From positions 1-51,093 of the forward strand of contig CANRLV010000009.1 in assembly GCA_947631565.1 (NCBI GenBank): 51,093 nt of DNA. The letters run 5' to 3'. Source of the DNA: an uncultured Gemmiger sp. Lineage in GTDB: Bacteria > Bacillota > Clostridia > Oscillospirales > Ruminococcaceae. The stretch's first letter is position 1. Each line of letters opens with the position of its first letter. Under the pieces are notes generated by a model, which worked only from the letters and a program-made list of their open reading frames with translations, made no database searches and was not told the DNA's origin. The position numbers and the translations under genes are program-made. Shown in pieces: positions 6,435 through 41,063 of the stretch.

Positions 6435-7892
6435 TTATTCCTCTGGAGGATACGTCGGCTGGGCCGGGATCATCTTGCGGGCGTCTTCCTCTGTGCAGCC
6501 AAAGTACCACGCATAGAAGCTTTCGAGCTTGTACTTGCCTGCCATCACCCACGTCCACCGGCGCTGATACTCGACGTCCATATCCTCAAGAACGCCGTCG
6601 CCCCATGTGCAGGTGATATTGACCTCGCCATCTTCGACGATACCGTACATGTGGTTGAGGGTCTTCATCACCTCAACGACCTCGGCGAGGCCGGCGTTCA
6701 GCGCCTTTTGCAAGGCGTTGATGCTGACAAAGGAGCGCTGCTTGGAGTTCTTGACCTCGGTTGCCGTGCGGTCTACCTCGGCCACCTCGGAAAGCACCCC
6801 ATAGGCAAGGCCGCACTGCAGCTCCACCTTGCGGAGTAACTGGTTCAGGCCATTGTAGATGGACGTGTCGCGGATCGTCGGCGCGTAAGCCTCGATATAG
6901 CCCTTTTTCTCGCCCTCAAACTCGAACGTGCGGAACAGCCGGTCCTCACCTTTCGGCAGAACGGGCTTGCCGTCCCTGTCCGTTTCAAAGAGCGATTCGT
7001 CGGCATTGATGGCCGCCTCGGTGGCTTTATACTCCCACAGGGCGCGGGTGTACTGGATGTCGGCCTGCTCGATGGTGCCCTTGGCCTTGGAGAACACAGA
7101 CACGCCGAGCGGCGAGCTGGGGTCAACGTTGTTCGCGCGGGGGGTCCTGATGTAAACGAACAGCGGCCGCGGGATGTCGTCCATCTCAACGTCCGGCTCG
7201 ATGCCCTGCCAGCCATCGACGGACGCCAGGTCCACCTCCATGTCAAAGGGGCGCTGGCAGGAAATCACATCGGTGTCGGCCGACGTCTGGTAGATGCGCT
7301 CGGACCGATACGCCTTGTTTATGACGGAGTAGTGCATGGTCTCGTACCAGCGGTGGTACTCGATGCGGGTGAACACATAATCGCCCTCGCGCTTCACGTC
7401 CAGAAAGACGCCGCCCGTCACATTGCCGTTGCTGTCAAAATGGGTCGGATAAAAGCGGTTAGCCCAGACTACATCCGTTTCCAGATGGTCGGGGTTCCCG
7501 TTCTCGTCCTCGCCGGCCGGGTACGGCTTGAACACGATGCCGCCGAGGGCGCACCACATTTCCGTAGACACCGGCAGGTTGGTGAGGAACTTGCCCATCC
7601 AGCCCTGCATGGCCTGCGCAAGTGCGCTGCCGTCAAGCTGGAATGTGAACTCCGTCAGAATGAGCCGGGCCGTTTCCTCCGAAATGACCGCGGGAAGGTT
7701 GAGGCACTTGGTGTGCTGCTCGCCGCCCAGCCACGGCGGCTGGTTCATGTACATCTGCATCCACAGAGCAATCTCGCTGTCCATGACGGCCGAGGTGGCG
7801 ATCTGCACGTTCAGCTTCTTTTCCAGATCGTTCTTCGGAAACATTCTGCTCACCAGCCTTTTGAAAAAATCAACAAGAAACAAGTCTATCAC
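6435..7892 (-). CDS. Phage portal protein, SPP1 gp6 type
   Basis: A 485 aa portal of the Phage_prot_Gp6 family. It forms the dodecameric vertex through which DNA is packaged. Visible features include the N-terminal helix DFFKRLVSRMFPKND, the wing region (GGIVFKPYPAG, VVWANRFYPTHFDSNG) and the stem/crown region with VEDGEVNITCTWGDGVLEDM, closely resembling portals of Lactobacillus and Clostridium siphophages. It starts with GTG in a GTGA overlap with the terminase stop, so the two are coupled; a later ATG (MFPKND) is an alternative start. It is followed by the minor capsid gene, the usual order. Confidence 0.93.
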   Translation of the reverse strand: MIDLFLVDFFKRLVSRMFPKNDLEKKLNVQIATSAVMDSEIALWMQMYMNQPPWLGGEQHTKCLNLPAVISEETARLILTEFTFQLDGSALAQAMQGWMGKFLTNLPVSTEMWCALGGIVFKPYPAGEDENGNPDHLETDVVWANRFYPTHFDSNGNVTGGVFLDVKREGDYVFTRIEYHRWYETMHYSVINKAYRSERIYQTSADTDVISCQRPFDMEVDLASVDGWQGIEPDVEMDDIPRPLFVYIRTPRANNVDPSSPLGVSVFSKAKGTIEQADIQYTRALWEYKATEAAINADESLFETDRDGKPVLPKGEDRLFRTFEFEGEKKGYIEAYAPTIRDTSIYNGLNQLLRKVELQCGLAYGVLSEVAEVDRTATEVKNSKQRSFVSINALQKALNAGLAEVVEVMKTLNHMYGIVEDGEVNITCTWGDGVLEDMDVEYQRRWTWVMAGKYKLESFYAWYFGCTEEDARKMIPAQPTYPPEE

Positions 7893-9304
7893 CCCGCCCG
7901 TTTAAGGTCGCGCAGTAGCTTTTGGATATCGTCTTCATAGGTGTATTCGAGTGCGTCCATCGTGTCGATGTCGGATGTGCCATCGTCCAGGCGCACCAGC
8001 TCTTGCTTTGTGGTGTCCCACGTCGCCATGCTGACGGCCGATTCAAGGGTCTCGCAGTCCTCGGTGTACAGAAAGCGGTTTTGCGCGCACAGCGACGTGA
8101 GGGCAAAGATGCGGTCGGTGATCTTGCTCTTTGTGGCCCCGGTCACTTTGATGTTGCCGCGCCCGCTCCGCTTGAGCGCGTTGCGCAGCCCGCGGATGAG
8201 CACCGATTCTTCCGAGTCGGCCCTGACCTTGGTGACAAAGCCATAGTCCTGCAGGATGCCCTCTATGAAGCGCACAAACAGCTGGCCCAGCATTTCCGGG
8301 TCGATGTCCTGCAGGCGGCGGTTGGTCTCAGGGTCTATGTCCCCTTCCCTGTAGCGGACGGAGCGCAGGCAGACCAGCTTTTCATATCCGAGCGTGGCGG
8401 CGGTCGCTACAAACGCATGGCCGGAGCCGTTGCCGCCGAAATCCACGCCGACGATGATCTTGATGAACTGCTTATCCCGCGCCATCTGCATCGCCTTTTC
8501 CTTGGGCAGGATATAAGCCCCGTCGCGGGCCGCGATGGACGTTGCCAGTTTGTTGTAGATAAGCCCCTCGGCAATGCTGCGCCGGCCCTCGATGTCCCGG
8601 ATATACCAAATGCTGCCCGGCTCATACTGGCTGACGATCTCTGCGATGCGCTGCCGCGTGATGTTGATGTTCTGGAAGATGGTGAAGTGGGCGTAGTTGT
8701 AGCCGCCCACCAGCTCGCCCTTTGCGGCCTTGGCTGCGTACTTGTCGATGTAGTCGCGGTAGATGGGGGCGTTGGGATGGTCGGGGTTAAGGTCCCAGAA
8801 GACCTTGCGGCGCTGTGCGGCCAGCTGGCGGTTGAAAGCCTCGCGGATGGTGTTGTCGTGATGGAGGTTTATCTCGGTGGCGATCCACATCCCGTAGGAG
8901 TTGCCGCGGATCTTCTTGTAGCTGTTGGCGAGCGCGCCGCCCGCAAAGATAACGATGCGCAGCCGGTACCCGGTGTCCGGTCCCTGTATGATGAGGGCGC
9001 TGTTGCCCTCGTACTTGCCCCATCGGCACTGGCCGCGGAAGATGTGCTCCAGCCCGTAGCCGTTGGCGTCGCCTATGTTCAGCTGGGCGTTGGCCGCGGT
9101 GGAGCCGGTTGCCAGATGGATCTTGTCCGGCGTGGTTTTCAGCTCATGGGCAAAGGCAAAGACGTTGTCAATGGTCTTGCCGGCACGGACGGCGCCCTCG
9201 GCCACGTTGATGAGGTTGTGCTGGCAGGCGCGGATATAAGCCTTGTGCTCGTCGCCGAATCGGTACCCGATGGTCTTACGCCGGTGGTGCTGCTTGTTCC
9301 TCGC
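7889..9304 (-). CDS. Phage terminase large subunit
   Basis: A 471 aa packaging motor and nuclease. Residues around 36 hold a Walker A variant (EGAVRAGKT). A later YGMWIATEINL segment fits Walker B and the coupling region. The C-terminal RNase H-fold nuclease shows IVGVDFGGNGSGH, VRADSEES and IDTMDALEYTYED, supplying the expected Asp residues. This matches the PBSX/SPP1-like Terminase_3/6 group. An in-frame ATG further upstream (9346) exists, but MARNKQHHRRKT (9304) fits the family start better. It overlaps the small-subunit gene and is followed by the portal. Confidence 0.92.
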   Translation of the reverse strand, partial: ARNKQHHRRKTIGYRFGDEHKAYIRACQHNLINVAEGAVRAGKTIDNVFAFAHELKTTPDKIHLATGSTAANAQLNIGDANGYGLEHIFRGQCRWGKYEGNSALIIQGPDTGYRLRIVIFAGGALANSYKKIRGNSYGMWIATEINLHHDNTIREAFNRQLAAQRRKVFWDLNPDHPNAPIYRDYIDKYAAKAAKGELVGGYNYAHFTIFQNINITRQRIAEIVSQYEPGSIWYIRDIEGRRSIAEGLIYNKLATSIAARDGAYILPKEKAMQMARDKQFIKIIVGVDFGGNGSGHAFVATAATLGYEKLVCLRSVRYREGDIDPETNRRLQDIDPEMLGQLFVRFIEGILQDYGFVTKVRADSEESVLIRGLRNALKRSGRGNIKVTGATKSKITDRIFALTSLCAQNRFLYTEDCETLESAVSMATWDTTKQELVRLDDGTSDIDTMDALEYTYEDDIQKLLRDLKRAG

Positions 9305-10103
9305 CATCATCGCCGTTCTTGCCATAGATTTCAGCCTCCACATCATCGAGGTCCTCTATCTCGATATTCCCCTTGCGGGCGCGGATGTCGGATAGCAGCT
9401 GCACTGCGCGCGATTTCTGGCGCTGGACCTCGGTCAAGAGCCGTTCCAGGCGCTCGACGATCTGATAGGAGCCTTCTGTGCCGGTCACGATGTGGACCAC
9501 CGTGCCGGGCAGGCGCTCCCCCGCCTCGGTCTTGGCATCCTGGCGCTCGATGTACTCTCTCTTGTCCTCGGCCTCTTGGGCCTCGTCGCCGTCAAGGCGC
9601 TTGAAATCCCGCTTGTCGTTTGACCGCTGGATGAACTGCACGGCCATCTTGTTCTCAGGCTTGGAGTAGAACTGAATCCGCTCAAGCAGGCGCGCCTCGC
9701 GGATGGAGAGCATCGCTATTTCCTCGACAAGTATCTGCTCCTCATCGGCGCCGGCGCTGTCCTCGATGGCCGCCCGCTCGGCGTCGGTGAGGCTGGACGC
9801 CCACAGCGTGGCATAGCCGCCGTGCTTGAAGGCGTTCCTGTTCTGTGGTGGCGCGCCGCCGCCCGAATTGCCTACCGCGTTCACGTTGCCCACAGGGGCG
9901 CCGCGGCGGCCTTGCTTGGTTGCAACTTTTTTCTTGCCCTTGGTTGCAACCTTTCGGGCGGGGCCGGTTGCAACTTTTTCTTTTTTCCAGTAGCGTGATG
10001 CCCATGACTTGACCGCGCTCAAAGACACGCCGAGAGTATCTGCAATCTCTTGGTACTTCATGCCCTTTTTGTAGAGCGTATAGCCCTTGTCGCGGAGTTC
10101 CAT
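9276..10103 (-). CDS. Phage terminase small subunit
   Basis: A 275 aa DNA-recognition subunit of the packaging machine. Residues 1-40 form a helix-turn-helix (YQEIADTLGVSLSAVKSWASRYW). Next come a basic linker rich in VATK repeats and the GAPVGNVNAVGNSGG motif that is diagnostic of many Firmicutes terminase small subunits. A long helical oligomerisation region (EEQILVEEIAMLSIREARLLERI) and a coiled C-terminal part follow. It is the first gene after the terminator that closes the QueT-DpdA cassette. Its 3' end overlaps the large subunit gene, as expected for coupled terminase genes. Confidence 0.88.
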   Translation of the reverse strand: MELRDKGYTLYKKGMKYQEIADTLGVSLSAVKSWASRYWKKEKVATGPARKVATKGKKKVATKQGRRGAPVGNVNAVGNSGGGAPPQNRNAFKHGGYATLWASSLTDAERAAIEDSAGADEEQILVEEIAMLSIREARLLERIQFYSKPENKMAVQFIQRSNDKRDFKRLDGDEAQEAEDKREYIERQDAKTEAGERLPGTVVHIVTGTEGSYQIVERLERLLTEVQRQKSRAVQLLSDIRARKGNIEIEDLDDVEAEIYGKNGDDGEEQAAPPA

Positions 10104-10140: not shown

Positions 10141-10174
10141 GAAAAAAGCCCGCCCAGCGAGAGCCAGGCGGGCT
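10141..10174 (-). terminator. Intrinsic terminator closing the QueT-MTase-DpdA-ParB cassette
   Basis: Minus-strand AGCCCGCC, 12-nt loop and GGCGGGCT followed by TTTTTTCG, located 16 bp after the QueT stop codon and before the terminase small subunit. It separates the modification cassette from the packaging genes. Confidence 0.85.
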
Positions 10175-10189
10175 GGTGCGCAAACCAAA

Positions 10190-10657
10190 TCAAAGAATCC
10201 CCCGCCGTTTCATCGGGGCGAAAATCACGTTCCCGGCCATCAGCAGAACGAAGGTCGAAAGGAACAGGCTGGCCACGTTCATCACATACGGGATGTGATA
10301 GACCATCGTCAGCTCCGCGCCGATGGACAGCGCGACCATGAGCGAGAGCGTCACGATCTTGGCGAAGATGGGCAGCCGCTTCCCGGGGCCGAATACCAAA
10401 AGCCCATGAGCTGCCGCGTGGGTACCGAGGCCAAAGGCCACGTCGATCACGCCCAGCGGGCTAAAGGCGTTGGCGAGGGAGACGCCCAGCAGAACGGCCG
10501 GCGAATACTTCTTGTCGAGGAAGGGCAGGACGCACACCATGGTAGCGACGCGGAACTGCACCGTTCCCCACGAAACGGGGTTGAGTGTCGTCAGGGCGAC
10601 GTAGAGCGCCGCGATGACGCCGACCTGGCAGATGGTGCGGGTGTTCGGCTTCTTCAT
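10190..10657 (-). CDS. queT: QueT-family queuosine-precursor transporter (ECF S component)
   Basis: A 155 aa membrane protein with about five hydrophobic segments. The core VQFRVATMVCVLPFLDKKY...LLGVSLANAF followed by GVIDVAFGLGT is the recognisable QueT signature: 'QFR...LP', then 'G...AN..SPxGxxDVxFG'. QueT proteins are substrate-binding components of ECF transporters that import queuosine precursors such as preQ1 or queuine, using host EcfA/A'/T. In this phage the gene shares a 4-bp overlap with a methyltransferase and belongs to a DpdA-containing transcription unit. This suggests it supplies 7-deazaguanine bases for DNA modification. The family call is strong; substrate and role here are inferred. 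Confidence 0.82.
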   Translation of the reverse strand: MKKPNTRTICQVGVIAALYVALTTLNPVSWGTVQFRVATMVCVLPFLDKKYSPAVLLGVSLANAFSPLGVIDVAFGLGTHAAAHGLLVFGPGKRLPIFAKIVTLSLMVALSIGAELTMVYHIPYVMNVASLFLSTFVLLMAGNVIFAPMKRRGIL

Positions 10658-11490
10658 TGCGCATCACCCGCCTTTCGGCAGACGAAAAGGATCTCCTTGG
10701 CCGCCTGCGGGAACGGTACGCCCATGATGGCCGTCAGCCACGTTTTTGGAATATAGGCTTTCAGGGCGTCATACAGGGCCTTGACCTCCGGCGACCGCGT
10801 GGCGTAAAACTCGTCCATCTCGCGGGCGCCCATCACAAGGCCGACCTCCTGCTCAATGGTGAAGCCGATATCCGTCAACGCGGCTTTGAGCTCGTCATAG
10901 CCCCACTCGTAGACGTGGGCGCGGTACTGGGTGTTGTAGCCGTTGCCCGGTGTGTTCGGGCAGGACAGGAACATGACCGCGCCGGGGGCCATGATCTTGC
11001 GGCACTCGGCCAGGCTCTTGCGCCCGTCGTCCGGGTGCATGTGCTCGATGGCCGAGGTGTAGATCACAAAATCGGCGCTCTCGGCGGGGATGGCCTTGCT
11101 CATCTCGGCCACGTTGCCGACCTTCCATGCGACCTTGAACGGGTAATAGGTCGCAAGGTCTTTGGGTGTCAGCTTCTTCTCGGCGGCGCCGCGCATGGCC
11201 TCCTTGATGTTGGCCTTGCAGATGTCGATGCCGGTGTAGCTTGCAATATCCTTGGCATAGTAGCGGAGCAGCGGCAGCATGAGCGAGCGGCCGCAGCACA
11301 CGTCCACGATGCGCATACCCTTTTTCGCCATCTGCGCCGCGGCAAAGTGCTGGATGTAGTTCATCACGTCCAGGTTGGTGAAAAAGCCATCCCGGAACTG
11401 CATATAGAAATTGCGCATCTGATAGGTGGTGCAGAGGATATTCTGCCGGTCCATCCCATCTTCAACGCGGTGGACGATTTGTTTCTCCAT
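10654..11490 (-). CDS. Class I SAM-dependent methyltransferase in the deazaguanine cassette
   Basis: A 278 aa Rossmann-fold methyltransferase. SAM-binding motif I is MRIVDVCCGRSLMLPLL, the acidic loop is YTGIDICKAN, and later motifs are ADFVIYTSAIEHMHPDDGRK and GAVMFLSCPNTPG, placing it in the Methyltransf_11/25-like group. No DPPY/NPPY motif is present, so it is unlikely to be a classic adenine or N4-cytosine DNA methylase. It lies between queT and the dpdA-like gene in overlapping frames. It may therefore act on the imported deazaguanine, on the modified nucleotide or on a tRNA. The substrate is unknown. A strong SD (GAAAGGG) precedes the ATG. Confidence 0.8.
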   Translation of the reverse strand: MEKQIVHRVEDGMDRQNILCTTYQMRNFYMQFRDGFFTNLDVMNYIQHFAAAQMAKKGMRIVDVCCGRSLMLPLLRYYAKDIASYTGIDICKANIKEAMRGAAEKKLTPKDLATYYPFKVAWKVGNVAEMSKAIPAESADFVIYTSAIEHMHPDDGRKSLAECRKIMAPGAVMFLSCPNTPGNGYNTQYRAHVYEWGYDELKAALTDIGFTIEQEVGLVMGAREMDEFYATRSPEVKALYDALKAYIPKTWLTAIMGVPFPQAAKEILFVCRKAGDAQ

Positions 11491-12232
11491 ATCGGTACCC
11501 TTTCATATCAAGATATTTTTGGTATTTGATCCATTCACGAATCGAGTAGTCCCGGCGCACATGGTTATCGCCGCCCATCATGCCCTTTGGCGGCATGACC
11601 TGCACGATGCTGTCGCCGGTGAAATACGAGATCCCGCCATAGGCGCAGGCCGTGCTCCACGTCGTGCTGTCCACGCTGTAGAAGCCGTATTTCCAGCAGT
11701 TCTTATTCGTGAATCCCAGTCCATGCACCCTTGTTCCGTAGGACGCGGCCAGCCTGACAAGCCCCTTGACGTGCTCGTACTCCCGCGGCTGGATGGTCTT
11801 GATGGCAAAGCCGCCGATTGCAATATAGTCATACTCTCGGCACATGGCCTTGAACTCGTCAAGCCCGCGGGTGCGGTGCCATACGGGGATGCATTTTCGC
11901 CCGGTAGCCGCCTCCAGCCGCTTGCGCATGGCCTTGACCGCATCGTACCCAACAATGGCGTCAATATCGAGTTCAAAGAAATTCTCGATGCTGTGCTCAT
12001 TGATGAAGCGGGCGTATCGGTCAAGGTAGTCGAGCCAGTCTATAGGCTTGTCCTTGCCCTTGCCTTTGTTGAGGAAGGTGAAGGCGCCGCTGTCCAGCAG
12101 GAACATCTTCCAGTTCGGGATCTCGCGGATCTGCCACTGCTTGATGTACTGAAAGCTTTCCAGCACATAAGCCGGTTTGTGCGCGAGCACGGCCCGCTGG
12201 TCGATGAACGTACCCGCCAGAAAGAGCTTCAC
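11462..12232 (-). CDS. dpdA: DpdA-like 7-deazaguanine DNA transglycosylase (TGT superfamily, phage type)
   Basis: A 256 aa protein resembling phage DpdA proteins, distant relatives of tRNA-guanine transglycosylase that exchange guanine in DNA for a 7-deazaguanine. Key segments are MKLFLAGTF, the FLLDSGAFTFLN motif (catalytic 'DSGA'), FFELDIDAIVG, CIPVWHRTRGLDEF and YDYIAIGGFAI, a TIM-barrel pattern. A GTG start at 12232 forms a GTGA overlap with the ParB-like gene and has GGGGAG upstream; further upstream GTGs exist. It is flanked by a ParB-like gene and a SAM methyltransferase, with queT next. The family call is good; the modified base cannot be read from sequence. Confidence 0.75.
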   Translation of the reverse strand: MKLFLAGTFIDQRAVLAHKPAYVLESFQYIKQWQIREIPNWKMFLLDSGAFTFLNKGKGKDKPIDWLDYLDRYARFINEHSIENFFELDIDAIVGYDAVKAMRKRLEAATGRKCIPVWHRTRGLDEFKAMCREYDYIAIGGFAIKTIQPREYEHVKGLVRLAASYGTRVHGLGFTNKNCWKYGFYSVDSTTWSTACAYGGISYFTGDSIVQVMPPKGMMGGDNHVRRDYSIREWIKYQKYLDMKGYRYGETNRPPR

Positions 12233-12792
12233 AGGTCGATCCACTCCCCGCACTTCGGACACTGGATGCGCGTCGTCCGGGGTGCCGGCGCTGGCGGCGC
12301 CGCGCCGTTGTCTTCGGGCGGGTGCTGCTCTGCGCTGGCGGTGGGTTTGTTGACCGGCTCCACAAAGAACTCCTCGAAATCCTCATCCTGTATGTCGCGC
12401 AGAACGGACTCGACCTCGACGTCGGTAAAACCGGTGGATTCCAGGTCGATGCCGAGGCCCTGCAGGGCCTCCATCTCGGCTTTGAGCAGGTCGTCATCCC
12501 AGGACGACGCCTCGGCCGTCTTGTTGTCAGCGATGCGATAGGCGCGGATCTGGGCGTCCGTGAGGTCGGTCACCTTGACGCAGGGCACCTCTTTCAAACC
12601 CAGCTTCTTTGCGGCCTCATAGCGCGTATGGCCGGCAATGATGATGTCGTTCTGGTCAATGAGGATGGGGACACGGAAGCCGAAGTCCTTGATGCTCTTT
12701 GCGACAAGGTCAACGGCGGCGGCGTTGTTGCGGGGGTTGTTCTCGTAGGGGTGGATGGATTCAATGGCTTGATATGAGATTTGCTGCTTCAT
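12229..12792 (-). CDS. ParB-like N-terminal domain protein with C-terminal zinc knuckle
   Basis: A 187 aa protein. Residues 1-100 form a ParB/Srx-like domain: SIHPYENNPRNN, then GFRVPILIDQNDIIIAGHTRYEAAKKLG, with the conserved 'GH-R' active-site loop. The middle region (IRAYRIADNKTAEASSWDDDLL, LESTGFTDVEVESVL) is the helical part found in phage and methylase-associated ParB-like proteins. The last residues hold one CPKC pair. It is the first gene of the DpdA cassette and overlaps dpdA by 4 bp, so it may guide or assist the transglycosylase on DNA. It is not accompanied by ParA, so a plasmid-partition role is unlikely. Confidence 0.78.
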   Translation of the reverse strand: MKQQISYQAIESIHPYENNPRNNAAAVDLVAKSIKDFGFRVPILIDQNDIIIAGHTRYEAAKKLGLKEVPCVKVTDLTDAQIRAYRIADNKTAEASSWDDDLLKAEMEALQGLGIDLESTGFTDVEVESVLRDIQDEDFEEFFVEPVNKPTASAEQHPPEDNGAAPPAPAPRTTRIQCPKCGEWIDL

Positions 12793-12867
12793 TTGTTCTC
12801 CCTTCTATCTGCGCTGTGTTCAGCGGTAGTCGGGAGCGATGCTGCTTCGGGTACCTCCTTTTCTGCC

Positions 12868-12902
12868 ACAAAAATAACCGCCCGGCGTACCATTCCGGGC
12901 GG
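12868..12902 (-). terminator. Intrinsic terminator upstream of the deazaguanine cassette
   Basis: Minus-strand CCGCCCGG, 9-nt loop and CCGGGCGG followed by TTATTTTTGTGG. It lies downstream of the ArpU-like regulator and upstream of the ParB-like gene. No obvious promoter is visible between it and the ParB start, so cassette expression may require antitermination here. Confidence 0.75.
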
Positions 12903-12935
12903 CTTATGGCTGGATTAAAATTCTACAATATAAGC

Positions 12936-12963
12936 ATACCACATTTTTGTCTCACCGTGGTAT
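12936..12963. promoter_or_regulatory. Inverted repeat near a possible late promoter
   Basis: A perfect 7-bp inverted repeat ATACCAC / GTGGTAT separated by 14 bp lies in an AT-rich stretch between the ArpU-like regulator and the downstream terminator. A TG-preceded TATGCT box overlaps it on the minus strand. It is a candidate binding site for the late regulator, not a proven operator. Confidence 0.4.
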
Positions 12964-12973
12964 CAAGTTTGTC

Positions 12974-13564
12974 TCAAACGGCGCTATTTCTCGTAGCTTC
13001 GTAATCAATTCCAAACAGAAGGTCGCCCATCGTCTCATATCCGGCCGCAAGATACCGGTAATAGCTGGCCCGGCTCACGTTCAGGCGGGCGCAAATAACA
13101 TCAACGCCGGGGTCGCCTTCCTCGATGTAGGTACACCGAATGCATGAGTACGCCTGCATCAGCTCTGGCCGGGAGTTATGGCGCTTTTGGGCAAGCTGCT
13201 CAAAGATATCCAGCATCTTGTCAATGTGCTGCACGATGATCTGTGTCCTGACCGCGCTGTCGCGGATGCTCTTGACGATGATGCTGTTCTTATCGACAGA
13301 GCCATTCATCAGGCCGTCAAGGACCTCGGCCTTGACCTCGTCCTCTTGCGTTGCCCCTTCCCTGTACACCGAATTCTCGGCGCTGGCCTTGAACTCGTGG
13401 TAATGGGTCAGCAGCAGTTTGGCGTTGCGGCGCTTGGCGTCCTGCCACGCCTTCATAGACTGGTGCCGGCGCCGCCCCTGCTCGGCAAGGGCGGCCCGCG
13501 CCCCAGCGGCAGCCGCTTCTTTGATGAGGTCAAGGACCTCATCCTTGGTGTACAGCTCGTTCAT
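12974..13564 (-). CDS. ArpU/RinA-like phage late-gene transcription regulator
   Basis: A 196 aa protein. An N-terminal acidic/Ala-rich helix and a basic stretch (EQGRRRHQSMKAWQDAKRRN) are followed by a central helical region. The C-terminal DNA-binding part contains IRCTYIEEGDPGVDVICARLNVSRASYYRYLAAGYETMGDLLFG. This sigma-70 region-4-like 'YI...I...LNVSxxxYYR' pattern is typical of ArpU/RinA-type regulators that turn on late genes. It lies just before the terminase/structural block and the modification cassette, the normal place for such a regulator. SD GGAGG precedes the ATG. Family assignment is by pattern only. Confidence 0.65.
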   Translation of the reverse strand: MNELYTKDEVLDLIKEAAAAGARAALAEQGRRRHQSMKAWQDAKRRNAKLLLTHYHEFKASAENSVYREGATQEDEVKAEVLDGLMNGSVDKNSIIVKSIRDSAVRTQIIVQHIDKMLDIFEQLAQKRHNSRPELMQAYSCIRCTYIEEGDPGVDVICARLNVSRASYYRYLAAGYETMGDLLFGIDYEATRNSAV

Positions 13565-20601: not shown

Positions 20602-21450
20602 TTACTCTCTCGCTCTCTCGCTCATCGTCAGCATTTCCTCTATGTTCATCTGCCTTGCTATGCGCTCGCGGGCTGCCGGATTGATCCACAGGCATTCCAC
20701 CCGACGTACAGCGCGCTCCCCTGTCGTTGCAACCTTCTCACAGCTCCAGTAGCGCAGCTTGTCCCGGTATAGGTCATTGTCATACCCTGACAGCAGCACC
20801 ATGCCATGGGCGGCAAGCAGTACATCAAGCAATCTCTCATGGTCTGCTTCGGTCATCTCATGCGTGTACTGTGGCCCATGTTTTGACCGCGTCTCAAGCA
20901 GGTAAGGCGGGTCACAGTAAAAGAGCATTTCCGGCCCGTCGTATTCTTCTATCACCGTGATTGCAGGGCGGCACTCAATCTGCGCATCGCGCAACCGTTC
21001 TGCCGCCTGTACCACGAGTTCCGGCATTCTGCGCCATAGCTTCGGGTTATCTGGTCCGCCGTTCTTACATGAGGCTGTTGTATTTCGCCACCCGGTTTTA
21101 TCATCCGCACCGCCAGCGCCGAATGCCATACAGCACAGCACCGCAAACCTTCTGGCAAACTCCACATCACCCACATCAAAGGCGCGGCAGCTCTCGTATT
21201 CTTTTCTGGCGTAGGGTGTCAGTCTCAGAGCTTCTGCCAACTCGTTCGGCCACTGGCGGCAGACCTCGAAAAACCGCACAATGTTCCCGTCGATGTCGTT
21301 GATGGTTTCTATCCGGCTTTTCGGTTTGTTGAAGAACACGGCTCCGCTGCCAAAAAACGGCTCACAGTAACCCTCGTGCGCCGGTAGTCTTTCAACGATC
21401 CACGGTGCCAATCTCCACTTTGCGCCCGGATATTTCAGAATCGGTTTCAT
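20602..21450 (-). CDS. Dam-like DNA N6-adenine methyltransferase (D12 class)
   Basis: A 282 aa D12-class methyltransferase. Motif X/I is ILKYPGAKWRLAPWI and EPFFGSGAVFFN; catalytic motif IV is MLFYCDPPYLLE (DPPY); a later VLLSGYDNDLYRD fits motif V/VI. The ATG at 21450 follows AAGGTGATTAT. It probably methylates adenine in a short palindrome, perhaps GATC, to protect phage DNA from host restriction or to mark it. No restriction partner is adjacent, so it is an orphan. It is the second independent DNA-modification gene in this phage after dpdA. Confidence 0.9.
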   Translation of the reverse strand: MKPILKYPGAKWRLAPWIVERLPAHEGYCEPFFGSGAVFFNKPKSRIETINDIDGNIVRFFEVCRQWPNELAEALRLTPYARKEYESCRAFDVGDVEFARRFAVLCCMAFGAGGADDKTGWRNTTASCKNGGPDNPKLWRRMPELVVQAAERLRDAQIECRPAITVIEEYDGPEMLFYCDPPYLLETRSKHGPQYTHEMTEADHERLLDVLLAAHGMVLLSGYDNDLYRDKLRYWSCEKVATTGERAVRRVECLWINPAARERIARQMNIEEMLTMSERARE

Positions 21451-21479
21451 ATAATCACCTTGCGTATGAACTGTTTTAA

Positions 21480-21546
21480 TCGGGCGGGCGGAATCGAACC
21501 GCCGCGCGAGGCGCGGGTGGACCTCACGCCCTATCCTGGCGCCCGC
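21480..21546 (-). tRNA. tRNA-like element B, short, non-canonical anticodon arm
   Basis: A 67-nt minus-strand element. The acceptor pairs CGGGCG/CGCCCG (6 bp; the first pair is G-A mismatched), the T arm is perfect (GGCGG-TTCGATT-CCGCC) and a D-like arm is present (GGAT...GTCC). The anticodon arm is compressed to CCGCG-CCTCG-CGCGG and runs into the T stem, with no 7-nt loop and no U33. It lies 4 nt after a second tRNA-like element. The T arm and acceptor argue for real tRNA ancestry, but decoding function looks lost. It could be a tRNA mimic. Confidence 0.45.
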
Positions 21547-21550
21547 GTGT

Positions 21551-21621
21551 TGCCAACGGCTGGGCTTGAACCAGCGACATACCTCCGGGTGCGGTGCTCT
21601 GACCCGCTGAGCTACGTTGGC
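21551..21621 (-). tRNA. tRNA-like element A with abnormal anticodon arm
   Basis: A 71-nt minus-strand element. The acceptor stem is perfect (GCCAACG/CGTTGGC), the D arm is standard (GCTC-AGCGGGTCA-GAGC) and so is the T arm (GCTGG-TTCAAGC-CCAGC). The anticodon region between them is only about 20 nt (CCGCACCCGGAGGTATGTC) and does not form a 5-bp stem with a 7-nt loop. No amino acid identity is assigned. A functional tRNA is unlikely from the sequence; a degraded tRNA or a purposeful mimic are both possible. Confidence 0.5.
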
Positions 21622-21622
21622 A

Positions 21623-21679
21623 TGATCCCCGCCGTCCGGACGGCGGGGTGCAGGGCCGCGTCTGCGATGCATCTTTTTT
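21623..21679. other. Intergenic segment with a perfect 22-bp palindrome
   Basis: Upstream of the tRNA-like pair, the sequence at 21627-21648 is a perfect 22-bp palindrome (CCCCGCCGTCC and its complement) with no loop. A T-run follows at 21671-21677 on the plus strand. A further small inverted repeat CCGGGCA/TGCCCGG lies at 21724-21740, inside the next small reading frame. No gene was identified in the palindrome region itself. Confidence 0.55.
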
Positions 21680-37358: not shown

Positions 37359-37481
37359 TCAGCTGCTATGTAGCTGCTCGATGTACCTTTGCACTTGCTT
37401 TACTTCCTCTGGCGTCAGTGTGGCGATTTGCGCCTCAATCTGCCGCAGCAAGGCTTCGCGGGAGTCTTTGACTTCTTGCAT
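37359..37481 (-). CDS. Small coiled-coil protein, 40 aa
   Basis: Starts MQEVKDSREALLRQIEAQIATLTPEEVKQVQRYIEQLHSS after GGAGAAAGC. The C-terminal LTPEEVKQVQRYIEQL helix is similar to the end of the CI-like repressor (LSDDELQKVLEYIKFV), so it may pair with or compete for repressor dimerisation. It is on the minus strand within a plus-strand lysogeny region. Whether it is expressed is uncertain. Confidence 0.5.
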   Translation of the reverse strand: MQEVKDSREALLRQIEAQIATLTPEEVKQVQRYIEQLHSS

Positions 37482-37611
37482 CTTGCTTTCTCCTTTATAA
37501 TTATTTGGGCATCGCCCACCCTCACGATACCCGCGCAAAGTGTCGGATGCTGTAGATTGTACGGGGTGTGTCGGATTATCACCGTTTCGGTTATTCTCTC
37601 CCCACAAAAGC

Positions 37612-37659
37612 AAAAAAGGCGCTCCGCCCAGCCCGGATATACCGGTCAGACGGAGCGCC
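37612..37659 (-). terminator. Minus-strand terminator upstream of integrase
   Basis: A 9-bp GC-rich stem GGCGCTCCG/CGGAGCGCC (37618-37626/37651-37659) followed on the minus strand by TTTTTTGCTTTTG. On the plus strand there is no T-run. It would stop transcripts antisense to the integrase gene before they enter 37359-37481. It may also fold in the integrase leader RNA. Confidence 0.65.
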
Positions 37660-37688
37660 GTGGATTATCGCAATGGCAGGAGGCTATC

Positions 37689-38753
37689 ATGCCCGCATAC
37701 AAAGACGGCAAGACGTGGATGGCCCGCTTCTACTATACTGACTTCACCGGTGCGCGTCGTCAGAAGAAGAAGCGGGGATTCGCCACGATGCGCGAGGCCA
37801 AAGATTATGAGCGGGATTTCAAGGCCCAGACCAGCCGCAGCATCGGTATGACCTTCGGGAAGCTGGTGGACGTCTATCTCAGCGATTCAGAGGGGCGCGT
37901 CCGGGCCTCCACCATCGAGAACAAGCGGGCCATCATCGAGACTTGGATACTCCCCTATTTCAAGCGCCGCGCCCTCGACGAGATAACCCCCATCGATGTG
38001 CGCGAATGGCAGAACAAGCTCATGTCTTACCGCACGAAAGGTGGCAATTTGCTGAAGCCGACCTATCTACGCTCCATCCATGCGCAACTCTCGGCCATCT
38101 TCAACTATGCCGTCAAATTCTACCAGCTGCCTCAAAATCCATGTAAGGTGACTGGCGGCATGGGCGAGAATCACGCGGACAGCATGAAGATATGGACGGA
38201 GAGCGATTTCAAGAAGTTCATCGCCCTGGTCGATCGCCCGGACTACCACCTGGCCTTTGATCTTCTGTTCTATGATGGGCTGCGCTGCGGCGAGCTGCTC
38301 GCCCTGCTGCAAAGCGACCTCAATGATAACAACGAGCTGTCCATCACAAAAAGCTATAAGAGGACCGGCAGACAAGACAGCATCGGCCCGACCAAGACCC
38401 GCAACTCCATCCGCAAGGTGCCCACGCCGCCGTGGCTGGCTGACGAGTACCGGGAGTACTGCCGGCGTCTGTACGGACTGCAGGCCGATACCCGCATCTT
38501 TCCTTGGACGGCTCACGCGCTCAAGAAGCAAGCCGACTACTACGCCGACAAGGCCGGCCTGCCGCGCATCCGTCTGCATGACTTCCGGCACAGCAGCGCA
38601 TCGTACCTGATCGACATGGGCGCCAGCGTGGCCCTTGTGGCCGAGCGCCTGGGGGACACGATGCAGATGATAATGCGGACCTATGCCCACCTGTATCCGA
38701 TACGGCAGATTGACATCATCGAGCAGATGCAGCGTTCCGGCGCCGAAAAATAA
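37689..38753 (+). CDS. int: Phage tyrosine integrase
   Basis: A 354 aa tyrosine recombinase starting MPAYKDGKTWMARFYYTDF after AGGAGGCTATC. N-terminal AP2-like arm-binding domain (residues 1-45), SAM-like core-binding domain (about 50-155), catalytic domain with the first Arg in LRCGELLAL, HDFRHSSASYLI (H-x-x-R), and RTYAHLY with the nucleophilic Tyr. It catalyses integration and excision. It ends 77 bp before the guaA stop codon and is the right-most phage gene. Codons upstream of 37689 are open but non-coding in character. Confidence 0.96.
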   Translation: MPAYKDGKTWMARFYYTDFTGARRQKKKRGFATMREAKDYERDFKAQTSRSIGMTFGKLVDVYLSDSEGRVRASTIENKRAIIETWILPYFKRRALDEITPIDVREWQNKLMSYRTKGGNLLKPTYLRSIHAQLSAIFNYAVKFYQLPQNPCKVTGGMGENHADSMKIWTESDFKKFIALVDRPDYHLAFDLLFYDGLRCGELLALLQSDLNDNNELSITKSYKRTGRQDSIGPTKTRNSIRKVPTPPWLADEYREYCRRLYGLQADTRIFPWTAHALKKQADYYADKAGLPRIRLHDFRHSSASYLIDMGASVALVAERLGDTMQMIMRTYAHLYPIRQIDIIEQMQRSGAEK

Positions 38754-38829: not shown

Positions 38830-40374
<1,545 letters not shown>

Positions 40375-40414
40375 AAAATAGCTCCTTTGCAGTCCAACGT
40401 TTCCTTTTACCAAG

Positions 40415-40455
40415 ATTATAGCATACCGGGCTGTCCGAAACAAGACAGCCCGGTA
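40415..40455 (-). promoter_or_regulatory. guaA promoter with an embedded 12-bp inverted repeat
   Basis: TTGTTT, 17-bp spacer, TGC-TATAAT (extended -10) on the minus strand. A perfect 12-bp inverted repeat TACCGGGCTGTC / GACAGCCCGGTA (40424-40435/40444-40455) has the -35 in its loop. The repeat lies 9 bp after the upstream gene stop, so it could be a terminator lacking a T-run, or an operator. Confidence 0.55.
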
Positions 40456-40463
40456 CAAATACG

Positions 40464-41063
40464 TCACTTCGCGCCCAGCTGCGCGGCCAGGCTCTCGCGC
40501 GTGTACAGCGTATTGAGCACCTGCAGCAGCGCCTGCTTGCTCAGACGCGGCGGCAGGCCGAGGCCTTGCAAAAACGCCCGGCGGCGGGCGGCGCTGTCCG
40601 CCGTGCCGGAAAGCCCCCAGTCATAGAGGTCCGTGTAGGTGATGGGCTCCCCTGCCGTTCTTTGCGCCTGCGGCTCGGCGGCCAGGGCGGTGCGCAGCGC
40701 CTGCAAAAGGGCTTCGTCCGGTATGCCCTCAACGCCGAGCAGGCCTTCCCTGCCCGGCTGCTCCTTTCGCCGTTCCTTGCCGGGGACGGCCGGCGCATAG
40801 GCGTGCAGCACCCGCTGCGGCCCGGCGATGTCGGCCACAAAGCGGCGGATGCGAAAGCCGGCGGCGTCGGGGTCGGTCAGGATGAGCAGCCCCTGTGCCG
40901 CACCCACGCGCCGGAACAGGCTTTGCATCGCTTTATCTTTAAAAATGGCAAAGCCGTCGGTCGTCAGGATGGTACCGTCGACCAGGTTTGCCAGCCGCGC
41001 GGCGTCATAGCGGCCCTCCACCACCAAAGCGCGGGTCAGCGCCAGCTTCTGCGCGCCGTTCAT
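40464..41063 (-). CDS. RNase M5-like Toprim protein
   Basis: A 199 aa protein starting at [21 protein letters not shown]. Residues 10-95 form a Toprim domain: [28 protein letters not shown]...[19 protein letters not shown], with catalytic E and DPD, matching the RNase M5 (5S rRNA maturation) family with its C-terminal DUF4093 part ([16 protein letters not shown]...[13 protein letters not shown]). RnmV would normally be near ksgA, but here it follows holA with a 4-bp overlap. 5S rRNA maturation is the probable role; another Toprim function is possible. Confidence 0.75.

Follow-up and report, generated by a model that had tools for sequence, protein, structure and literature searches.

A prophage cassette with a methyltransferase in the QueC slot beside DpdA: a probable route for an imported, methyl-capped 7-deazaguanine into phage DNA

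DpdA systems hide the DNA of phages from restriction. What might such a system write into DNA when its only supply gene encodes an importer and its DpdA is followed by a methyltransferase? The question is raised by four overlapping genes, ParB-DpdA-methyltransferase-QueT, in a 51,093-nucleotide contig from an uncultured Gemmiger sp. (GCA_947631565.1, CANRLV010000009.1), analyzed at its full length and here called the window. We posit that this cassette is probably a late operon of the prophage through which an imported 7-deazaguanine with a methyl cap, its exact identity left unspecified, is written into phage DNA, which would thereby be protected from restriction. QueT, seated on the host ECF energizing module, would import a 7-deazaguanine base, free of the host preQ1 riboswitch; DpdA would swap guanines of phage DNA for the imported base; the ParB-like protein would aid the exchange in the manner of DpdB, by loading DpdA on DNA or by driving insertion; and the methyltransferase would methylate the 7-substituent before or after insertion. 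The chemistry that we prefer would be O-methylation of the carboxylate of 7-carboxy-7-deazaguanine (CDG) to a methyl ester, the main alternative being N-methylation of preQ1.

All four genes lie on the minus strand. The first encodes the ParB-like protein (12229-12792; 187 aa; PF02195 2.1e-8, phrog_620 1.1e-57) and is followed by the DpdA gene (11462-12232; 256 aa, GTG start, TGT fold), a class I S-adenosylmethionine methyltransferase gene (10654-11490; 278 aa) and the gene for QueT (10190-10657; 155 aa), an ECF S-component predicted to import queuosine precursors, whose identity, proposed earlier, is secured by a PF06177 score of 86.2 bits against a cut-off of 33.7. In the list of open reading frames, ParB and DpdA overlap by 4 nt, DpdA and the methyltransferase by 29 nt, and the methyltransferase and QueT by 4 nt; all four frames are open and keep residues that do not vary among relatives. 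Frames, overlaps and family profiles thus agree with the single overlapping unit described by the original prediction, and the search for the same block in related phages, which it had suggested, located three further loci (L001, L002 and L019) with the four genes in identical order followed by the gene for the terminase small subunit (TerS); in L001 and L002 one small additional gene separates the methyltransferase from QueT.

Both fold and profile identify the protein encoded at 11462-12232 as a DpdA, with a predicted activity on DNA. A fold search revealed a TGT-type TIM barrel, succeeding where PDB sequence profiles gave no credible match; the best family is phrog_887, "queuine tRNA-ribosyltransferase" (2e-52), and Pfam and NCBIfam profiles gave no significant match. 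Alignment with the DpdA of JenP1, from the genus Nonagvirus (the genus of phage 9g), reached an hhalign probability of 99.2 (E 1.6e-19), and the direct profile comparison with the host TGT was not significant. Two aspartates, D47 and D188, in the motifs LLDSGAF and SVDST, are invariant in sets of 12 and 60 sequences; from the role known in TGT they are presumably catalytic. Fold and profile therefore keep the protein within the TGT/DpdA superfamily, as had been proposed.

How this DpdA is accompanied elsewhere was established from DpdA-led searches, which returned 8, 80 and 67 loci (designated here by L numbers) and were supplemented with annotated phages and methyltransferase-led loci; the viral loci are the best 80 of 543 relatives and are thus selected for similarity. 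With distinct loci defined by less than 95% DpdA identity and window-like ones by at least 150 bits with a hidden Markov model (HMM) built from these loci, as were the HMMs for neighbors, there are 144 distinct loci, of which 113 are window-like; 102 of these have at least 2.5 kb downstream, and 11 more have too little flank. Among the 102, the most frequent flanks hold QueC with synthesis genes (38), YhhQ without a tailoring enzyme (29) or QueC with YhhQ (17); the methyltransferase is found with YhhQ in 5, with QueT in 4 and with synthesis genes in 2; the rest have QueT without tailoring (3), synthesis without tailoring (2), QueC with synthesis and YhhQ (1) or neither (1). Supply is thus by FolE-QueD-QueE, YhhQ or QueT, and an importer (YhhQ or QueT) without QueD, QueE or FolE serves 58 of the 102. 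The original prediction had held importer-only supply to be unusual; since such cassettes are common and QueT is annotated beside DpdA in Streptococcus phage Dp-1, the novelty of importer supply is smaller than it supposed. On the DpdA tree the type of supply needs at least 15 changes and that of tailoring at least 23; these counts, together with the ParB linkage described below, demonstrate a modular system in which the ParB-DpdA core is stable and tailoring and supply are exchanged between related phages. The system can be seen as a set of exchangeable slots: the core, a tailoring enzyme, and supply by synthesis or import.

Several accessory genes and unusual settings recur among these loci. 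DUF6884 is present in several, as detected with an HMM from L010, whose own Pfam match is firm (6e-41). A small phosphoribosyltransferase (L025 7394-7720, L177 5901-6260, L022 1822-2184) was seen in 6 distinct loci, each of which also has synthesis genes, and might recycle guanine released by DpdA. ParB-DpdA-YhhQ modules (L115, L138 and L139) lie in contigs whose genomes are labelled Archaeoglobus or Methanobrevibacter. In 17 distinct loci (e.g., L044, L050 and L059) QueC accompanies YhhQ, and QueD, QueE and FolE are missing; a QueC beside an importer, with the genes that make its substrate absent, suggests either CDG import or a second role for QueC.

A ParB-like gene sits just upstream of DpdA (its end at most 600 nt before the DpdA frame, or overlapping it) in 90 of the 91 testable window-like loci and in 98 of 120 overall; in the sole window-like exception, L040, the DpdA frames are in tandem and ParB precedes the first. 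A 4-nt stop/start overlap of the two genes is possible in 60 of 100 loci. That 102 of the 107 ParB calls in window-like loci fall directly before DpdA argues against mere frequency as the reason for its presence, and the ParB-like protein regularly accompanies this DpdA, as DpdB does in bacterial systems. ParB_N is the sole Pfam family over its cut-off in the window protein; the first part of that protein matches a type II methyltransferase model in PADLOC (2.6e-28), and GxxRxxA is found in 76 of 100 ParB relatives. DpdB of bacterial Dpd systems is described, in passages of PMC12839542, as a ParB-like ATPase that drives insertion and is dispensable in some clusters. By this analogy, a role in driving insertion would fit the window's ParB-like protein better than the site choice entertained by the original prediction.

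Does ParB, then, belong to DpdA alone? A single-protein scan with TerS returned no relatives, and an alignment was used in its place; 49 of 80 TerS loci were picked by hand, leaving out 28 with a short query match and 3 that are the contigs of L001, L002 and L019, and 38 of the 49, duplicates kept, have at least 1.5 kb upstream. In these 38 loci, searched also with known methyltransferase motifs, ParB was called in 30 and DpdA in none. The slot of L209 holds a ParB_N domain joined in one protein to an N6/N4 methyltransferase, with a C5 methyltransferase next; those of L186 and L203 hold ParB, PAPS-reductase-like genes and an SSF transporter, and that of L191 holds ParB and the reductase. The CmoX paper (PMC12783734) places a ParB domain close to a different DNA hypermodification and describes its exact function as unknown. 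Because the same slot pairs ParB with other modification genes, and because of that occurrence, it seems preferable to regard ParB as accompanying phage DNA modification in general, rather than as choosing sites for this DpdA alone. The comparison brings out a slot ahead of the terminase, headed by ParB, where unrelated DNA-modification genes, some of them known, take each other's place. The ParB/PAPS-reductase slots themselves (L186 1508-5945 and L203 465-3560, with SSF; L191 3317-4432) possibly represent another importer-fed DNA modification; in L186 there are two ParB calls, of which one lacks a Pfam match, and a carboxymethylcytosine system considered for the slot of L186 was rejected on finding that Pfam gives PAPS-reductase-like and SSF genes.

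The methyltransferase is the most informative part of the cassette. The window protein matches generic class I families only (Methyltransf_23 2e-12) and none of the classical DNA methyltransferase families PF01555, PF02086 and PF00145; its relative in L174 grazes PF01555 (E 0.059), and a PADLOC match to part of mads_2 (2.8e-12) is read as generic methyltransferase similarity. The DpdA-linked family stands in the place of QueC after DpdA, and the two are nearly exclusive, QueC being present in 1 of 18 methyltransferase records. Its best structural neighbor is a carboxylate methyltransferase, and CmoM, the tRNA 5-carboxymethoxyuridine carboxyl methyltransferase, is counted among the closest known systems. 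Seven methyltransferase records (L082, L173, L174, L175, L176, L177 and L179) carry FolE and QueE, joined in four of the records by QueD; QueC and over-cut-off QueF are absent from all seven, so that their own route would stop at CDG. The enzyme most likely caps the inserted base. We tentatively favor the CDG methyl ester as its product, a possibility short of an even chance; N-methyl-preQ1 and some other product each appear somewhat less likely. Either way, phage DNA chemistry would be tied to bases from the surroundings, and a methyltransferase family with a testable product is named. For the nucleosides, the computed [M+H]+ is 325.1143 for the CDG methyl ester, 310.1510 for N-methyl-dPreQ1, 310.1146 for dADG, 296.1353 for dPreQ1 and 311.0986 for dCDG.

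Where the base would come from is suggested by the host. QueT was recovered again in a whole-genome scan of the host assembly, and the host has its own QueT too, 30% identical to that of the phage and preceded by a PreQ1-III riboswitch (78.7 bits). Rfam found no PreQ1 riboswitch before the phage cassette even at E 10, which suggests that phage QueT escapes host preQ1 feedback. Two EcfT/CbiQ-family genes exceed the cut-off in the host genome. Across 31 scanned host relatives (the window's own genome, 18 of the genus and 12 of the order), QueA is present in all, QueT in 28 and QueF in one, which lies outside the genus. QueC profiles match in 29 of the 31, and 26 exceed the Pfam cut-off of 22 bits, none above 32 bits; phage QueC proteins score 204 and 251 bits. 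Many of these host matches span the first 60 positions only, some nearly all, and in the window's own genome a single partial match scores 20.8 bits; we interpret these matches as PP-loop enzymes of other kinds. The host genes for TGT and QueA lie side by side. As the scans show neither QueF nor a convincing QueC in the host genus and the host has a QueT of its own, salvage of an imported 7-deazaguanine, raised by the original prediction, is plausible and, judged from gene content, likely for this phage. Phages without synthesis genes have been proposed to use host or exogenous precursors, and some carry YhhQ, according to sections of PMC6884629. A single-protein QueT scan of viral contigs gave no relative. 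A tree of YhhQ (57 rows) was considered as a sign of differing substrates and rejected: importers of QueC and methyltransferase loci are not cleanly separated, with 7 changes in a two-way and 10 in a three-state scoring; the labels are clustered (19.4 changes on average after shuffling), and the tree has long branches that meet.

In its most specific form, our proposal holds that the methyltransferase replaces QueC and takes CDG, whether made by FolE-QueD-QueE or imported by QueT or YhhQ, so that 7-methoxycarbonyl-7-deazaguanine, a neutral methyl ester, enters phage DNA. As a whole chain this is rather unlikely to be right in every part; were it true, phage QueT and YhhQ would be the first CDG importers, and the methyltransferase would found a new branch of 7-deazaguanine DNA chemistry. 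The seven records whose synthesis would end at CDG and the carboxylate methyltransferase as best structural neighbor favor it over the rival in which QueT imports preQ1, DpdA inserts it and the methyltransferase methylates the amine, an enzyme different from DpdM yielding the same product. DpdM is a dPreQ1 methyltransferase with an unusual fold, unlike class I, and it was reportedly Cui and colleagues who in 2023 found 7-(methylamino)methyl-7-deazaguanine in phage DNA together with this enzyme; the window protein is class I. That rival, doubtful on balance but the strongest, draws support from the host, whose own salvage base is preQ1 by the PreQ1-III riboswitch before its QueT, the presence of QueA, the absence of QueF and the unconvincing QueC, and from a small gene of ~105 aa. 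This gene has invariant C, D, E and H (13 aligned; L033 7489-7812, L044 7414-7728, L001 9479-9892 and others). Of the 18 distinct loci that contain it, 17 place it in an importer cassette, and the remaining one, L129, is cut; it is present in L001 and L002 and absent from the window and L019. Its profile grazes QueF-like 5jyx (E 0.011) and a dihydroneopterin aldolase (4.4e-5), one member weakly matches QueF-II, and it occurs in the methyltransferase cassettes of L001, L002, L033, L037, L060 and L171. A step of the QueF kind would suit either preQ0 or preQ1 and counts against CDG, keeping N-methyl-preQ1 in play.

The other rivals concern the purpose of the cassette. QueT and the transglycosylase fold are both of queuosine type, and the phage could merely help its host keep queuosine in tRNA, leaving DNA unmodified; the host, though, already has TGT, QueA and QueT, DpdA aligns with a phage DpdA and not significantly with host TGT, and the ParB partner is kept in a terminase-side slot that in related phages holds ParB with DNA methyltransferases or other enzymes, making this account very improbable. 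ParB might instead set sequence specificity, so that sparse, site-specific marks would serve packaging or self-recognition rather than bulk protection. Its constancy beside DpdA, the adjacency of the cassette to TerS and the pairing of slot ParB with unrelated enzymes, which fits general targeting, all speak for this; the insertion-aiding ATPase DpdB, dispensable in some clusters as reported in part of PMC12839542, speaks against it, and we regard it as unlikely. Decayed or unexpressed cargo is if anything the least probable: the methyltransferase was found at E 1e-20 in only 1 of 35 genus genomes searched, the window's own, but four open, overlapping frames with invariant residues, and a gene order kept in relatives elsewhere, are hard to square with decay.

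Precedents exist for DpdA, the ParB-like partner, importer-only supply and phage QueT, each on its own. DpdA of the same superfamily is described for the 9g, CAjan and Rosebush phage groups (Hutinet et al. 2019, PMC6884629); in contrast to those systems, the window has a methyltransferase in the QueC slot and QueT as its only supply gene, and that article's main text mentions no QueT, ParB, DpdB or methyltransferase. Dp-1, like the window, has QueT directly beside DpdA according to its record annotation; unlike the window, it has QueC, QueD, QueE and FolE, and its annotated cluster lacks ParB and the methyltransferase. Bacterial Dpd islands (synthesis genes dpdA-C) share DpdA and a ParB-like partner, as outlined in parts of PMC11888242 and PMC12839542; dpdB is linked to DndB domains in an excerpt of PMC11888242, whereas the window ParB matches PF02195. 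DUF6884, the family that the same excerpt gives for DpdC, is an addition in some related phage cassettes; Pfam finds it in none of the window's four cassette proteins. Actinophages Sonali and Rinkes and mycobacteriophage CRB2 also have a ParB-like gene beside or near DpdA, and the CRB2 paper already suggests a DpdB homolog; unlike the window, they have QueC, QueD and QueE (and, in Sonali and Rinkes, FolE), and the stretches examined contain no importer or methyltransferase. In Fusobacterium phage phiFN37, ParB overlaps DpdA and an importer occurs without synthesis genes in the examined stretch, as in the window, but the importer is of the YhhQ type and DUF6884 takes the place of the methyltransferase. 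In that stretch (L010 2772-11410) the phage carries three genes annotated as ParB-like: one overlaps DpdA, and one stands next to a gene annotated as a PAPS reductase. The literature searched, which was covered in part, describes neither a class I methyltransferase linked to DpdA in the QueC slot nor a CDG ester in DNA; what is new here is this methyltransferase in combination with known parts.

The cassette is flanked by a hairpin on each side, as originally predicted. The downstream one, an intrinsic terminator between QueT and TerS (10147-10174, minus; 12 pairs, 9 of them G-C, then a T run), was identified by hairpin scan and folding. The upstream one (12868-12902, minus), a leader hairpin lying past a promoter-like site and ahead of ParB, was identified by folding: a 9-pair, G-C-rich stem read from 12902 to 12868, with a loop of 9, is followed by TTATTTTT; the loop limit of the scan is 8, which puts this hairpin outside its list. 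The number of terminator-like sites in the region (8 observed, 4.9 +/- 2.1 in shuffles) is by itself poor support. The promoter-like site (12927-12955, minus) is weak, with 9 of 12 matches, and the count of such sites (3 observed, 1.8 expected) is no evidence by itself. By folding, T-run hairpins recur upstream of the cassette in L001, L002, L019 and L117 and downstream of it in L001; the downstream hairpin of L002 was read by eye and is absent from the minimum-energy fold, and that of L019 is weak. In the window (12868-12955) and at the same place in L001, L002, L019 and L117, a promoter-like site is closely followed by a T-run hairpin before ParB, an arrangement that resembles an antitermination leader. 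Upstream, a gene at 12974-13564 (minus; phrog_1558 7.3e-33, function unknown; DUF1492 7.4e-4, below cut-off) would, from its position, encode a late regulator.

Downstream of the cassette lie TerS (9276-10103, minus; phrog_1889 7.9e-48) and the terminase large subunit (7889-9346, minus; phrog_2 3.9e-25). At the other end, a tyrosine integrase (37389-38753, plus; PF14659 1.5e-17, PF00589 4.4e-10) marks the right end of the prophage and adjoins host guaA (38830-40467, minus; GATase 1.4e-40, GMP_synt_C 8.3e-35), the first chromosomal gene; rightwards follow a DUF4093/Toprim gene, a DNA polymerase III delta gene, a ComEC-type competence gene, alaS and a penicillin-binding protein. Since the integrase abuts guaA and host genes follow, the cassette lies in a prophage on the host chromosome, the left end of which is cut by the contig edge. 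PHROG side matches had made the 545-aa protein at 38830-40467 a candidate QueC-like pathway amidotransferase; it was rejected, being host guaA. The window is one whole contig of a 2.47-Mb genome in 140 contigs (89% complete, 5% contamination). The closest cassettes in named genomes are in two Faecalibacterium records and a 7.4-kb contig of a Gastranaerophilales metagenome-assembled genome; as one Faecalibacterium record is a complete chromosome, work with cultured strains should be possible, related elements being carried by Faecalibacterium sp. I4-1-79 and F. prausnitzii APC923/51-1 (L098, L099). Elsewhere in the prophage, Rfam calls a tRNA at 21551-21621 (48.2 bits), but ARAGORN finds none in the window, and a D12-class N6-adenine methyltransferase at 20602-21672 constitutes a second DNA modification gene of the same prophage.

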